DNA of 64,000 nucleotides, from contig NZ_CP049935.1 of the NCBI RefSeq assembly GCF_011383005.1, forward strand, positions 186,001-250,000. Direction: 5' to 3'. The notes beneath the pieces are model-generated. The model was not told the DNA's origin and made no database searches. It saw only the letters and a program-made list of their open reading frames with translations. Made by a program: the position numbers and the translations under genes. Each line of letters starts with the position of its first letter. Within the stretch, counting starts at the first letter, position 1. The stretch is from Phycicoccus sp. HDW14. Lineage in GTDB: Bacteria > Actinomycetota > Actinomycetes > Actinomycetales > Dermatophilaceae. This document shows positions 41,451 through 45,562 of the stretch, in pieces.

Positions 41451-41492
41451 CGCAGGGCCGGCTCCGGGACTCACCCCGGACCCGGCCCTGCG
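41451..41492 (+). terminator. Terminator between rplO and secY
   Basis: An 18-bp stem (41451-41468 with 41475-41492) containing one mismatch. It sits 21 bases after rplO and implies that secY has its own promoter. Confidence 0.75.
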
Positions 41493-41599: not shown

Positions 41600-42913
41600 G
41601 TGCTCACCGCTTTCGGCCGCGCGTTCAAGACGCCCGACCTGCGCAGGAAGCTGCTGTTCACCCTGTTCATCATCGTGGTGTTCCGGCTGGGCTCGCACGT
41701 GCCCACCCCCGGCGTCAGCTACCCGGCGGTGCAGCAGTGCATCAAGGGCGCCGACAACAGCAACCAGCTGCTCGGCCTGATCAACCTCTTCAGCGGCGGC
41801 GCGCTGCTCCAGCTGTCGATCTTCGCGCTGGGGATCATGCCGTACATCACGGCGAGCATCATCGTCCAGCTGCTCACCGTCGTCATCCCGCGGTTCGAGG
41901 CTCTCAAGAAGGAGGGCCAGGCCGGTCAGACGAAGATGACGCAGTACACGCGCTACCTGACGATCGGGCTGGCGGTCCTCCAGAGCTCGACGCTCATCAC
42001 CTTCGCGCAGAACCCCTCGACGCTGTTCAACAACCCGTCGTGCACGAACATCCTGTCCGACAGCTCGGTCGTCACGATCCTCATCATGGTGCTGACGATG
42101 ACCGCCGGTACGGGCGTCATCATGTGGATGGGTGAGCTCGTCACCGACAAGGGCGTCGGCAACGGCATGTCGCTGCTGATCTTCACCTCGATCGCGGCGC
42201 AGTTCCCGTCCTCGCTGTGGCAGATCCAGCAGCGCTCCGGCTTCGGCACCTTCCTCGGCGTCATCGCCCTCGGGTTCGTCGTCATCGCGCTCGTCGTGTT
42301 CGTCGAGCAGAGTCAGCGCCGCATCCCGGTCCAGTACGCCAAGCGGATGGTCGGGCGCCGGGTCTACGGCGGCACCTCCACGTACATCCCGCTCAAGGTG
42401 AACATGGCCGGTGTCATCCCGGTCATCTTCGCGAGCTCGCTGCTGACGCTGCCCACGCTCGTCGCGCAGTTCAACCAGGGCGCCAACGGGGTCAACCCGG
42501 GCTGGGTCGACTGGATCCAGGCCCACCTCGTGCGCGGTGACCACCCGTACTACATGGCCCTCTACACGGGCCTCATCCTCTTCTTCACGTTCTTCTACGT
42601 GTCGATCACGTTCAACCCCACCGAAGTCGCCGACAACATGAAGAAGTACGGCGGCTTCATCCCGGGTATCCGCGCCGGGCGACCCACGGCCGAGTACCTC
42701 AACTACGTCCTGACCCGGATCACCGTGCCCGGCGCGATCTACCTCGCGCTGATCTCGCTCCTCCCGCTCGTCGCGCTGGTCCTGGTCGATGCGAACCAGA
42801 ACTTCCCCTTCGGTGGCACCTCGATCCTCATCATCGTGGGTGTCGGCCTGGAGACGGTGAAGCAGATCGAGGCCCAGCTGCAGCAGCGTCACTATGAAGG
42901 GTTCCTCCGCTGA
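41600..42913 (+). CDS. secY: Protein translocase subunit SecY
   Basis: SecY is the membrane channel of the Sec pathway. The 437-residue product shows ten hydrophobic segments; recognisable parts include [12 protein letters not shown] near the start and [30 protein letters not shown] before the last helices. The GTG start follows GGAGGACCCT. Its stop overlaps the adk start by one base. Confidence 0.97.
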
Positions 42914-43473
42914 TGCGACTCATCATCCTCGGGCCGCCCGGTGCCGGTAAGGGCACGCAGGCGTCCCGGATCGCCGAGCACTTCGGCATCCCGGCCATCT
43001 CGACCGGGGACATCTTCCGGGCCAACATCAAGGACGAGACCGAGCTCGGTCTGCAGGTCAAGGAGATCCTCGCCTCGGGCGGGTACGTCTCCGACGAGAT
43101 CACCAACGCCATCGTCGAGGACCGCCTCGGCCAGGACGACTGCGCACGGGGCTTCCTCCTCGACGGCTACCCGCGCACCCTCGCCCAGGTCGAGGCGCTC
43201 GACTCCGTGCTCGCCGCCCACGGGGGCGCGCTCGACCACGTCCTCGAGCTGACCGTCGACGACGACGTGGTCGTCGGGCGGCTGCTCAAGCGGGCCGAGA
43301 CCGAGGGTCGTTCCGACGACACCGAGGAGGTCATCCGGGACCGGATGGCCATCTACCACCGCGAGACGCGTCCGCTGTCGGAGACCTACCGGTCGCGCGG
43401 CCTGCTCGTCGAGGTCGACGGCGACGGAGCTGTCGACGACGTGACGCAGCGGATCACCACCGCCCTCACCTGA
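42913..43473 (+). CDS. adk: Adenylate kinase
   Basis: Catalyses ATP + AMP to 2 ADP. The 186-residue product has P-loop GPPGAGKGT (7-15), the AMP-binding STGDIFR and the lid-adjacent DGYPRT motif. It is the short-lid type without zinc cysteines, typical of actinobacteria. In most actinobacteria map follows directly; here a palindrome-flanked nuclease gene separates them. Confidence 0.97.
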
Positions 43474-43506: not shown

Positions 43507-43574
43507 CCCGTCGAAAGTACAGAACACGCCGTCTGCGCCTCTTGCCAGACGGCGTGTTCTGTACTTTCGACGGG
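43507..43574. repeat. Palindromic element 1 (29-bp perfect inverted repeat)
   Basis: Arms 43507-43535 and 43546-43574 are perfect reverse complements around a 10-base loop. The arm core is GTCGAAAGTACAGAACACGC. It begins 33 bases after the adk stop and ends 52 bases before the nuclease gene. The same arm sequence recurs at 44566-44635. It may end adk transcription, but it looks like a dispersed repeat rather than an ordinary terminator. Confidence 0.9.
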
Positions 43575-43626
43575 GTTCTGTGGAGAACTCGGCGGGCGAG
43601 CCGGTCGAACCCGCGACCCTGCCTCC

Positions 43627-44565
43627 ATGCGCCCCTCAGACCTGCCTGCGAGCTTGGGCACAGGCGCCTTCAGCACGAGCGCGGCCCGGGCGGCCGGGGT
43701 GCCGTCGAGCAGGTTGCGCCGTTCGGACTTGCACCACCCCACCCGAGGGGCCCACGTCCGCACCGTGCCTTCGGTACTCGTCGACCGCGCTGCGGCCTAC
43801 CTCGCGGGACTGCCGGACGGCCGTGCGTTCTCGCACCTGACAGCGGCCCGCCTGCACGGGCTCCCGCTCCCGGCTCACCTCGAGCGGGAGGCAGACGACG
43901 GGCCATTGCACGTGATGGCCCGCACCACCGCCGGACACACGCGTCGTGGCGGATGCACCGGACACCGCGGACTGGAGTGGCGGACTTCGACCGACGTCCA
44001 CGGTCTGCCGGTGGTCTCGCCCGAGGACACGTGGTGCGACCTCGGCGAGCTCGGTCGGCGGCGGGTCTGTGTTGACGACCTCGTCGTCCTTGGCGACGCC
44101 GTCGTGGCACCGGTCGCCTCCCTGCGCGACGCAGCGTGGCAGCTGAGAGGCCCCATGGAGAGCCGGGTCCGACCGCGCGGCAAGGTGATGCTCGTGGAGG
44201 CGCTCAGCCTGATACGTCCCGGGGTGCGGTCGCCGATGGAGTCGCGGGCACGTCTCATGTTCGTGCGGACCGGCTTCCCCGAGCCCGAGGTGAATGGGGA
44301 CCTCACGGACCGCGCCGGGGAGTGGCTGGCTGAGGGCGACCTCGTCTGGCGGGATCGACGGGTCGTCGGTGAGTACCAGGGCTCCGACCACGCCTCGCGC
44401 CGGCGTCGCAGCCGTGACGCGTCGCGCCGGACCTCGCTCGAGGGCGAGGGCTGGACCGTCCTCGAGATCTGGGCCGAGGACGTCCTCGTGGGAGGCCGAC
44501 GGACGGCGTGCCTGCTCCGGTTCGCACACGAGCTCGGCATCGACCCCCGACACCTGGACCTCTGA
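43627..44565 (+). CDS. DUF559/AbiEi-like predicted endonuclease-domain protein
   Basis: A 312-residue protein of a type that is multicopy in many actinobacteria. The N-terminal part (about 1-70) resembles the winged-helix region of AbiEi-type antitoxin-like proteins, with AFSHLTAARLHGLPLP after it. The last 80 residues resemble a Vsr/DUF559 nuclease fold: Asp238 in EGDLVWRD, Glu249 and Gln251 in VVGEYQG, and a final GWTVLEIWAEDVL. Lack of the usual aspartate or lysine pair leaves activity uncertain. Codons are less biased than in the flanking ribosomal genes. The stop abuts palindrome 2 exactly. No defence or toxin role is shown; the family functions are poorly known. Confidence 0.7.
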   Translation: MRPSDLPASLGTGAFSTSAARAAGVPSSRLRRSDLHHPTRGAHVRTVPSVLVDRAAAYLAGLPDGRAFSHLTAARLHGLPLPAHLEREADDGPLHVMARTTAGHTRRGGCTGHRGLEWRTSTDVHGLPVVSPEDTWCDLGELGRRRVCVDDLVVLGDAVVAPVASLRDAAWQLRGPMESRVRPRGKVMLVEALSLIRPGVRSPMESRARLMFVRTGFPEPEVNGDLTDRAGEWLAEGDLVWRDRRVVGEYQGSDHASRRRRSRDASRRTSLEGEGWTVLEIWAEDVLVGGRRTACLLRFAHELGIDPRHLDL

Positions 44566-44635
44566 CCCCGTCGAAGGTACAGAACACGCCGTGCCGTCAC
44601 GGGAGCGGACGGCGCGTTCTGTACTTTCGACGGGG
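44566..44635. repeat. Palindromic element 2, related to element 1
   Basis: Arms 44566-44592 and 44609-44635 match at 25 of 27 positions around a 16-base loop. The arm core GTCGAAGGTACAGAACACGC differs by one base from that of element 1. It starts on the base after the nuclease stop codon. Confidence 0.88.
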
Positions 44636-44693
44636 TGTGGGGGAGCGGGTGGGGAGGGGGCGGGTGGGATGTGGGGGAGCGGTGCGGCGCGGG

Positions 44694-44707: not shown

Positions 44708-45562
44708 ATGGGACTGTTCAGCCGTGACCGCTGCGAGGGCAAGACGGCCGAGCAGCTGGCGATGATGCGCACCGCCGGCCTGCTCGTCGGGCGCACCCTC
44801 GAGCTGGTCGTCGCGGCGGTCCGCCCGGGCGTGACCACCCTCGAGCTCGACGCCCTCGCCGAGGCCCACATCCGCGACCACGGCGGCATCCCCAACTTCC
44901 AGCTCGTCCCCGGCTACCGGCACACCCTCTGCACGAGCGTCAACGACGAGATCGTGCACGGCATCCCGGGCCCGCGCGTGCTCGCCGCCGGCGACCTGCT
45001 CTCCATCGACTGCGGGGCCGAGGTCGCGGGCTGGAACGGCGACTCCGCCGTCACCGTCGTCGTCGGCGGACCCGAGGCCGCCCGCCCCGAGGACCTCGCG
45101 CTCAGCGAGGACACCGAGGCCTCGCTCTGGGCCGGCATCGCCGCGCTGACGGTCGGGGCGCCGCTCTACGCCGTGGGCGCCGCGGTCGAGGACGCCGTCG
45201 TCGACGCCGGCACCCGGCGCGGGCGCGAGTACGGCATCGTCGAGGACTACGTCGGCCACGGCATCGGCACCTCGATGCACATGGACCCGCAGGTGCCCAA
45301 CTACCGCATCCAGGGCCGCAGCCCCCGCGTGCCCGACGGCATGACCATCTGCATCGAGCCGATGGTCACCCTCGGCGACCAGGACAACACGATCCTCGAG
45401 GACGAGTGGACCGTCGTCACGCGCGACGGCTCGCGGGCCGCGCACTGGGAGCACTCGGTGGCGGTCACCTCGGCCGGCACGTGCGTGCTCACGGCGATCG
45501 ACGGCGGCCGCGAGCGGCTGGCGTCCCTCGGCGTCGCGTACGCCGACATCACCCCCGCCTGA
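44708..45562 (+). CDS. map: Methionine aminopeptidase, type I
   Basis: Removes the initiator methionine from nascent proteins. The 284-residue product has the metal-ligand segments SIDCGAEVAGWNGDSAV (two aspartates), GHGIGTSMHMDP (histidine), CIEPM and WEHSVAVT (glutamates). The substrate histidine is in TSVNDEIVHGIP. The ATG at 44708 is chosen on family length and the promoter eight bases before it. It normally sits next to adk and infA in this gene order. Confidence 0.95.
   Translation: MGLFSRDRCEGKTAEQLAMMRTAGLLVGRTLELVVAAVRPGVTTLELDALAEAHIRDHGGIPNFQLVPGYRHTLCTSVNDEIVHGIPGPRVLAAGDLLSIDCGAEVAGWNGDSAVTVVVGGPEAARPEDLALSEDTEASLWAGIAALTVGAPLYAVGAAVEDAVVDAGTRRGREYGIVEDYVGHGIGTSMHMDPQVPNYRIQGRSPRVPDGMTICIEPMVTLGDQDNTILEDEWTVVTRDGSRAAHWEHSVAVTSAGTCVLTAIDGGRERLASLGVAYADITPA

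Follow-up and report, generated by a model that had tools for sequence, protein, structure and literature searches.

What does a nuclease-like gene do between adk and map, enclosed on both sides by almost identical palindromes, and are the enzyme and the palindromes parts of one system? The question is raised by a short segment of the 64,000-nucleotide stretch of DNA analysed here (the window), which corresponds to positions 186001–250000 of the genome of Phycicoccus sp. HDW14 (G000; 4.07 Mb, single contig). We consider it probable that the gene and its palindromes form a nuclease-linked repetitive palindrome system, which would work like a REP/RAYT pair with an unrelated enzyme.

The nuclease gene and its palindromes between adk and map

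The gene is located at 43627–44565 on the plus strand and, as judged from the ORF, Pfam and the predicted structure, encodes a 312-residue fusion of an AbiEi-like half and a DUF559 (Vsr-like) nuclease half. Its position between adk and map, as given by a first-pass annotation of this DNA, is confirmed by the flanking plus-strand ORFs at 42913–43473 and 44708–45562, which were named adk and map, respectively, from similar annotated records. The designation DUF559/AbiEi-like also holds, as the protein passes the cut-off of DUF559 (PF04480; 24.5 bits versus 20.6) and the AbiEi fold is recognised by structure comparison; two other family members, L100 and L130, gave no Pfam match at E ≤ 0.01. In the AlphaFold2 model (pLDDT 93), the presumed palindrome-binding half, comprising residues 1–198 (43627–44220), resembles the AbiEi antitoxin 6y8q_A (residues 2–197; Z 11.3, rmsd 5.5, 177 residues) and Rv2827c (1zel_B; residues 1–198, Z 8.1), and its residues 49–192 resemble the nucleotidyltransferase-like toxin MenT1 (8an5_B, Z 9.5). 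The nuclease half, comprising residues 199–312 (44221–44562), is similar in fold to the homing endonuclease I-Bth0305I (3r3p_A; residues 202–305, Z 11.9, 95 residues at an rmsd of 2.7) and to Vsr (1cw0_A; residues 200–306, Z 9.7), and also resembles mitoribosomal proteins (9g6k, Z 10.4). Residues E205, D238, E249, H255 and D264 of this half are unchanged in all 48 core proteins of the family defined below, and Q251 in 46 of the 48; we take these conserved positions to be the catalytic residues. Together with a dN/dS of 0.15–0.26 among four genes of the type found here (dS about 0.8–1.1), this shows that the nuclease is intact and constrained.

The upstream palindrome (43507–43574, no strand assigned) consists of 29-nt arms that are 100% complementary around a 10-nt loop, in agreement with the perfect 29-bp palindrome annotated before, and its 23-nt core arms are located at 43510–43532 and 43549–43571, with 52 nt separating the palindrome from the start codon. 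The downstream palindrome (44567–44634, no strand assigned) has its core arms at 44570–44592 and 44609–44631, while the hairpin scan delimits its arms as 44565–44592 and 44609–44636 (28 nt, 93% complementary, 16-nt loop). It had been described as a 27-bp palindrome directly on the stop codon; the palindrome is there, but it contains two mismatches and begins one base after the TGA of the ORF. The common core of about 23 bases with a single difference was seen correctly, since corresponding 23-nt arms of the two palindromes differ by one base on the left and by one on the right; we call this arm sequence type A. The two are the top-scoring hairpins of the 64-kb window (scores 29 and 20, the next best 14), and the maximum in six first-order Markov resamples of the window was 14. 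Against Rfam, the minus strand of the hairpin gave two matches that did not reach the gathering score and were taken as chance. Elsewhere in the window, a GC-rich hairpin, GCAGGGCCGGCTCCGG, is present at 41451–41492 between rplO- and secY-like ORFs, and it recurs about 2.1–2.3 kb before the nuclease gene in six genomes, including this one; it is perhaps a terminator or attenuator.

Among 11 relatives of the same genus, a gene of the family is found at the adk–map site in five (G002, G003, G005, G009 and G011), with the adk side alone visible in G002, where the contig ends at the right palindrome. The site of G008 retains about 45 codons of the 3′ part of the gene together with a decayed palindrome, that of G001 is empty, those of G004 and G010 hold an ORF (without a Pfam match in G010), and those of G006 (L319) and G007 (L326, 729–1852) hold a different gene on the opposite strand. 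As the cassette is present in five of the 11 relatives and the contents of the site differ, the insertion is old in the genus and the site variable, so that the idea of a private insertion in this genome had to be abandoned. An empty site thus exists in G001; a target duplication was not recognised in the comparisons of sister and relative sites, whose flanks are diverged to a degree at which short duplications could escape. The gene in G007 is assigned to AbiEi_4 by Pfam, with a nuclease-like stretch at its C-terminus by eye, and it has similar palindromes on both sides (ACGCAGGACTTCGGATGCCACGC and ACGCAGAAGTTCGGCCGGCACGC); it perhaps represents a second family with the same palindrome habit. 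Relatives of the protein were not found in phages, plasmids gave one match of 32%, eight stretches of viral contigs matched a pattern with no relative of the protein among them, and in the DNA search of plasmids the best 10 of 48 matches lay over adk- or map-like genes or in unannotated sequence. Thus, no carrier element was found in the plasmid, phage and viral-contig searches.

Palindromes around the genes of the family

Relatives were gathered by protein sequence alone, from 46 of 58 genomes at E ≤ 1e-5 and from 52 named loci, and we take the named relatives to be Dermatophilaceae/Intrasporangiaceae. The resulting 93 loci comprised 90 with the gene, 71 of them distinct and 68 left after three near-identical ones were removed. 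The core of the family, defined by a score of at least 180 bits against any member of A2 together with at least 80% of the length, numbers 48 genes, of which 44 remained after four lying too near a contig end were set aside. Hairpins stand on both sides of 29 of these 44 genes (26 of them as matched pairs), on one side of 10 and on neither side of five, compared with 59 of 1,020 random 200-nt segments of the same loci. The five genes without a hairpin weigh against the reading preferred here; the hairpin scan misses imperfect palindromes. Strong hairpins (score at least 16) were found upstream of 24 and downstream of 22 of the 44 genes versus nine of the 1,020 segments. The upstream palindrome ends 50–72 nt before the start codon in 26 of the 35 core genes having one, and the start of the downstream palindrome falls within the range from 20 nt ahead of the projected gene end to 40 nt past it in 28 of 39. 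Among the 20 non-core genes (19 evaluable), hairpins occur on both sides of five, on one side of eight and on neither side of six.

Moreover, the two palindromes of a gene match each other and differ between loci, with arm sequences ranging from the type in the window to quite different ones (for example at L130, L131, L134 and L178). For 36 two-sided genes, upstream and downstream partners gave a mean score of 38.4 versus 10.0 for swapped pairs; the own partner was the best for 27 of the 36, and none of 20,000 permutations, which treat related genes as independent, was as good. Furthermore, the palindromes diverge along with the protein. Among the 33 genes with matched palindromes, protein distance and palindrome similarity are correlated with a Spearman coefficient of −0.49 (0 of 1,000 permutations), the AbiEi half giving −0.55 and the nuclease half −0.37 (at most two of 1,000 permutations), so that the distance of the AbiEi half tracks the palindromes best. 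This Mantel test was run without L103, L110 and L168, which are core and two-sided and have unmatched palindromes, the upstream hairpin of L103 being a poly-G/C artefact.

The possibility that all DUF559 genes have such palindromes was also considered and rejected. A matched pair was found at one of 30 other actinobacterial DUF559 loci (those of the 44 listed matches that were available as loci, five of them with short ORFs, the choice of the ORF being crude), and therefore the palindrome habit belongs to a branch and not to DUF559 at large. The single exception, L293 (G072:C1:412936), is a distant actinobacterial DUF559 gene with near-identical palindromes of 48–50 nt on both sides; the habit may have several origins or may be old.

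Dispersed copies, palindrome types and their exchange between species

The palindromes are not confined to the adk–map site. The DNA search of the HDW14 genome revealed 13 palindrome places (26 matches, both strands), all of which consist of two 23-nt arms with a 16-nt spacing. Their alignment reveals covariation, in that 92.6% of the cells are paired and eight pairs are changed on both sides versus 4.4 in shuffles, a lenient test as the copies are related. A covariance model raised the count to at least 26 places at E ≤ 2.2e-4, which is a lower bound since 150 of 10,973 first-look candidates were scored, and the arm search added type-C places beyond these. A genome-wide arm count and a test of whether the copies always flank such genes had been proposed as checks: the copies are dispersed, but 23 of the 26 have no gene of this kind beside them. 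None of 23 solo copies falls within a called ORF (crude ORF calls; L223 and the additional type-C places stand outside this count), which indicates that the palindromes are extragenic. Three arm types are distinguished, namely type A of the window, type B (TCGAACGACGAGAACATGCCG) and type C (TCGAGAGGAGGCAACACGCAG).

The sole other family gene found in this genome, at 538839–539773 (G000:C1), is about 50% identical to that of the window and has type-C palindromes on both sides. It matches in two overlapping frames and therefore looks frame-shifted, by a real frame shift or a sequencing error. Type C is nonetheless plentiful in the genome (23 arms) with several nearly identical copies, which weighs against the preferred reading. 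There is thus a single gene copy per type in this genome, one of type A and one of type C. In the same-genus relatives, too, each gene type has one copy, and a type can have up to about 30 palindromes in a genome. Near-identical palindrome copies are few overall, which gives little sign of present activity.

When arms were counted in 12 genomes (two arms making a palindrome, with 0–1 hits for reversed-pattern controls), the numbers followed the resident gene types in most cases, with clear exceptions; they include a few chance hits as well as cross-hits of other types, such as those obtained in G001, G006 and G007 when type A was sought. Type-A arms number 28, 59, 15 and 24 in G000, G003, G005 and G002, respectively, where the gene is present; among the genomes lacking it, G009 has 28 and seven others have 2–10, partly of other types. 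For type B, there are 23 and 21 arms in G009 and G011, which have the gene, and 20, 15 and 6 in G002, G000 and G005, which lack it, with 0–2 in the others. For type C, the genomes with a type-C gene or a close one have 23 (G000, with the frame-shifted gene), 28 (G009), 26 (G006) and 22 (G007) arms, G011 with a broken gene has eight and G005, whose related gene has differing arms, has two; where the gene is absent, 10 were counted in G001 (all of one variant), eight in G002 and none in four genomes. The arms without a cognate gene, namely type A in G009 and type B in G000, G002 and G005, weigh against the preferred reading and are read as relics of a former resident. Decay of palindromes that have lost their gene is weakly visible, since exact type-B arms make up seven of 36 where the gene is present (its own flanks excluded) versus three of 41 where it is absent.

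Some observations on the type-C search stand by themselves. The ten arms of G001 share one identical variant, TCGAGATCGGGCAACACGCAG, at L315–L317 and seven further places, some of them near contig ends; the three copies read are all palindromes, and the variant is perhaps a recently spread type. At L322 (G009:C1:3927323–3927467), two type-C palindromes are arranged in tandem, their starts 85 nt apart. In G006, type-C-like palindromes at L312, L313 and L314 (C1, near 1404561, 1690000 and 2540724) are split near the centre by the same element of about 1.2 kb, which encodes a 390-residue transposase with HTH_38 and rve domains (Pfam) and is presumably IS30-like. This insertion sequence seems to target type-C-like palindromes in that genome.

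The comparison of the sister genomes G003 and G009 (adk and map together 96% identical, tree support 100) bears on turnover. Along adk they are 88–100% identical, and over the first 750 nt past the right palindrome 90–100%, whereas the cassette and the sequence just to the left of it are 24–76% identical. The cassette palindromes are of type A′ in G003 and of type B in G009. Moreover, the gene tree places G009 with G011 (support 100), apart from the four type-A genes (97), in contradiction to the tree of the flanking genes. Since the cassette is diverged between similar flanks and the gene tree runs against the flanking genes, we conclude that the cassette was exchanged in place; ordinary recombination across adk–map would look the same as an exchange of the homing type. 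The flanking-gene tree and the adk and map identities rest on partial coverage of map, in which the pieces compared look orthologous, and the support of that tree is 42–58 at several nodes, 80–84 at two, and 100 both for G003 with G009 and for G000 with G005 against the rest.

Exchange is also indicated at solo sites. At six of the nine positions where G009 has a solo type-B palindrome, the one found in G003 is of type A′; of the other three, one has type B beside an A′ copy shared by both genomes, one has no palindrome in G003, and one has a decayed B-like hairpin in G003. The outgroup G000 has type B at two of the six switched sites (266929 and 2044220), and thus it was G003 that changed there; at two other switched sites (1145535 and 3785189) G000 has type A, its comparison covering four of the six. 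Palindrome identity between the sisters is 69% at the six switched sites versus 86% at five sites of the same type, and the flank identities are 0.75/0.72 and 0.80/0.81, respectively, by simple global alignment. As the flanks are somewhat more diverged at the switched sites, the exchange was not always clean. Judging from the tandem site with B and A′, a new type may arrive next to an old one, and the old one is then lost. In addition, two A′ copies of G003, separated by 388 nt, are identical but for one position, and the second of them lies where G009 has no palindrome. Of the 12 solo type-A sites of G000 in the query, 11 were aligned (L019 aligns poorly), and an A-type palindrome was present at seven of 10 in G003, three of 10 in G005 (one of them half decayed) and two of eight in G009, which has type B at two more of its eight. 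The nearest relative, G005, therefore shares the fewest of these sites after allowing for the own type of G009, and the more distant G003 shares more, which weighs against the preferred reading; loss in G005 or repeated gain would account for it.

A possible mechanism, its alternatives and known systems

Matched flanks, co-divergence with the protein, dispersed copies, differing types at orthologous sites, cassette exchange and an intact, constrained nuclease are shown at the sequence level, and from these we infer that the palindromes are bound and cut and that the enzyme causes their spread. The AbiEi-like half would bind the arms (about 23 nt) of its own palindrome type, including those of the copy before its own gene, two such arms in inverted order making a palindrome of about 62 nt, and the Vsr/I-Bth0305I-like half would nick or cut at or beside palindromic sites. 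Repair of the cut would then bring in a copy of the cognate palindrome, and in this way cognate palindromes would spread between genes and displace other types, while types without their nuclease would decay or be overwritten. The palindrome–gene–palindrome cassette could also be exchanged as a whole.

Other readings have to be weighed against this. The palindromes could be operators, through the upstream copy of which the AbiEi-like half represses its own gene, the other copies being a small regulon or architectural binding sites and the nuclease half doing something else. This agrees with the AbiEi fold, with the 50–72 nt between palindrome and start codon in 26 of 35 core genes, and with the 23-bp inverted repeats through which AbiEi and Rv2827c are reported to autoregulate (PMC7319586). 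It agrees poorly with the second copy behind the stop codon, the different arm types at orthologous sites of the sisters and the conserved nuclease residues, and also with the location of the 23 solo copies, of which 17 are within 35 nt of a stop codon, seven lie between convergent genes and four between divergent ones (crude ORF calls). We regard it as unlikely, though an operator role may additionally be true of the upstream copy.

It is improbable that the cassette itself is mobile and ends in the palindromes, the solo copies being scars left by deletion of the gene through recombination between its two palindromes, in the manner of solo LTRs. The cassette exchange at adk–map speaks for such scars, and so does the remnant with a decayed palindrome in G008; one copy per gene type per genome faces up to about 30 palindromes, however, corresponding sites bear different types in the sisters, and of the 71 loci searched this adk–map site of G008 was the one with a gene remnant, whereas a clean deletion would leave none. 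The reading as a composite transposon was likewise made less likely, and not refuted outright, by the one copy of each gene type and the scarcity of remnants of the gene.

We find it quite improbable that the palindromes serve as transcription terminators or as 3′ hairpins of mRNAs and owe their number to ordinary gene conversion, with the gene as a bystander. Their frequent location near stop codons and between convergent genes (17 and 7 of 23, respectively) is what terminators would show, but the matched pairs that accompany a single gene family across many lineages, the co-divergence with the protein and the copies before the gene are left unexplained, and a plain terminator reading does not predict that the type of arm mostly corresponds to the resident gene. 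It is highly improbable that the system is a device for defence or addiction whose nuclease attacks foreign palindrome types or DNA without the sites of the host, as the AbiEi-like half, the PADLOC match of one member (L130) to AbiEi (E 7.3e-7) and the different types at the same sites are opposed by the persistence of type B beside the type-A gene in G000, by the absence of a toxin gene adjoining the gene of the window and by insignificant PADLOC matches of its protein.

For the nuclease-linked palindrome system preferred here, the closest kind by behaviour is the REP/RAYT pair, in which a gene is reported to be flanked by its own palindromic repeat and the repeat to be dispersed between genes (PMC3116915, PMC3733652). 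As there, each gene type has a single copy, its own repeat lies on both sides (29 of 44 core genes, 26 matched) and the copies are extragenic. The enzyme is different, being by Pfam and fold an AbiEi–Vsr/DUF559 fusion and not an HUH tyrosine transposase, and so are the repeats: REPs are short (20–40 bp) and carry on one side an unpaired tag, GTAG or a similar one, whereas the palindromes here are about 62–68 nt long and occur in tens of copies, with 23-nt core arms, 29 paired positions and ends that lack GTAG. Since the defining enzyme and repeat differ, the system is no member of that class. The first-pass suggestion of a mobile or selfish module resembling REP/RAYT with a different protein family therefore survives in the layout, the dispersed copies and the in-place exchange, and fails as regards a private insertion. 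CGTC-tagged REPs, reported to be dispersed extragenic palindromes without a dedicated transposase and with stems of 8–9 bp (PMC3733652), were compared by length and layout; they share the dispersed extragenic position and differ by their short stems.

With the Vsr-like (EDxHD) homing endonuclease I-Bth0305I, the system shares the fold of the nuclease half and the conserved acidic residues, and the in-place exchange of the cassette would fit homing as it would ordinary recombination; it differs in that the gene stands free, includes an AbiEi half and lies between palindromes also found without it. The AbiE type IV toxin–antitoxin systems (AbiEi/Rv2827c) have the same N-terminal fold and inverted repeats of about 23 nt before the gene, and the 23-bp repeats that AbiEi and Rv2827c are reported to bind (PMC7319586) equal the arm length of the window palindrome. 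Here, no AbiEii toxin gene adjoins, the neighbours being adk and map, a nuclease half is present instead, and the repeats also occur behind the gene and around the genome. In the open-access literature, no paper with both DUF559 and AbiEi was found, and titles and abstracts gave no REP-like palindromes with a Vsr-like nuclease.

We tentatively assume, at somewhat less than even chances, that these are ‘homing palindromes’, a counterpart of REP/RAYT that arose independently in Actinomycetota, in which type-specific AbiEi–Vsr nucleases spread and overwrite non-coding 60-nt repeats and rival types compete for intergenic sites, the winner following the resident cassette and this cassette being exchanged between species in its turn. 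In the open-access literature covered, dispersed palindromes with a dedicated enzyme are tied to HUH transposases. A second, unrelated type of enzyme, if true, would mean that the partnership of palindrome and enzyme arose more than once, and would provide a candidate mover for repeats without a known transposase. Furthermore, the family offers a natural series of nuclease–palindrome pairs with co-varying specificity, which would be useful for reading the recognition rule, and the different types at orthologous sites would make the spread of such repeats directly testable.
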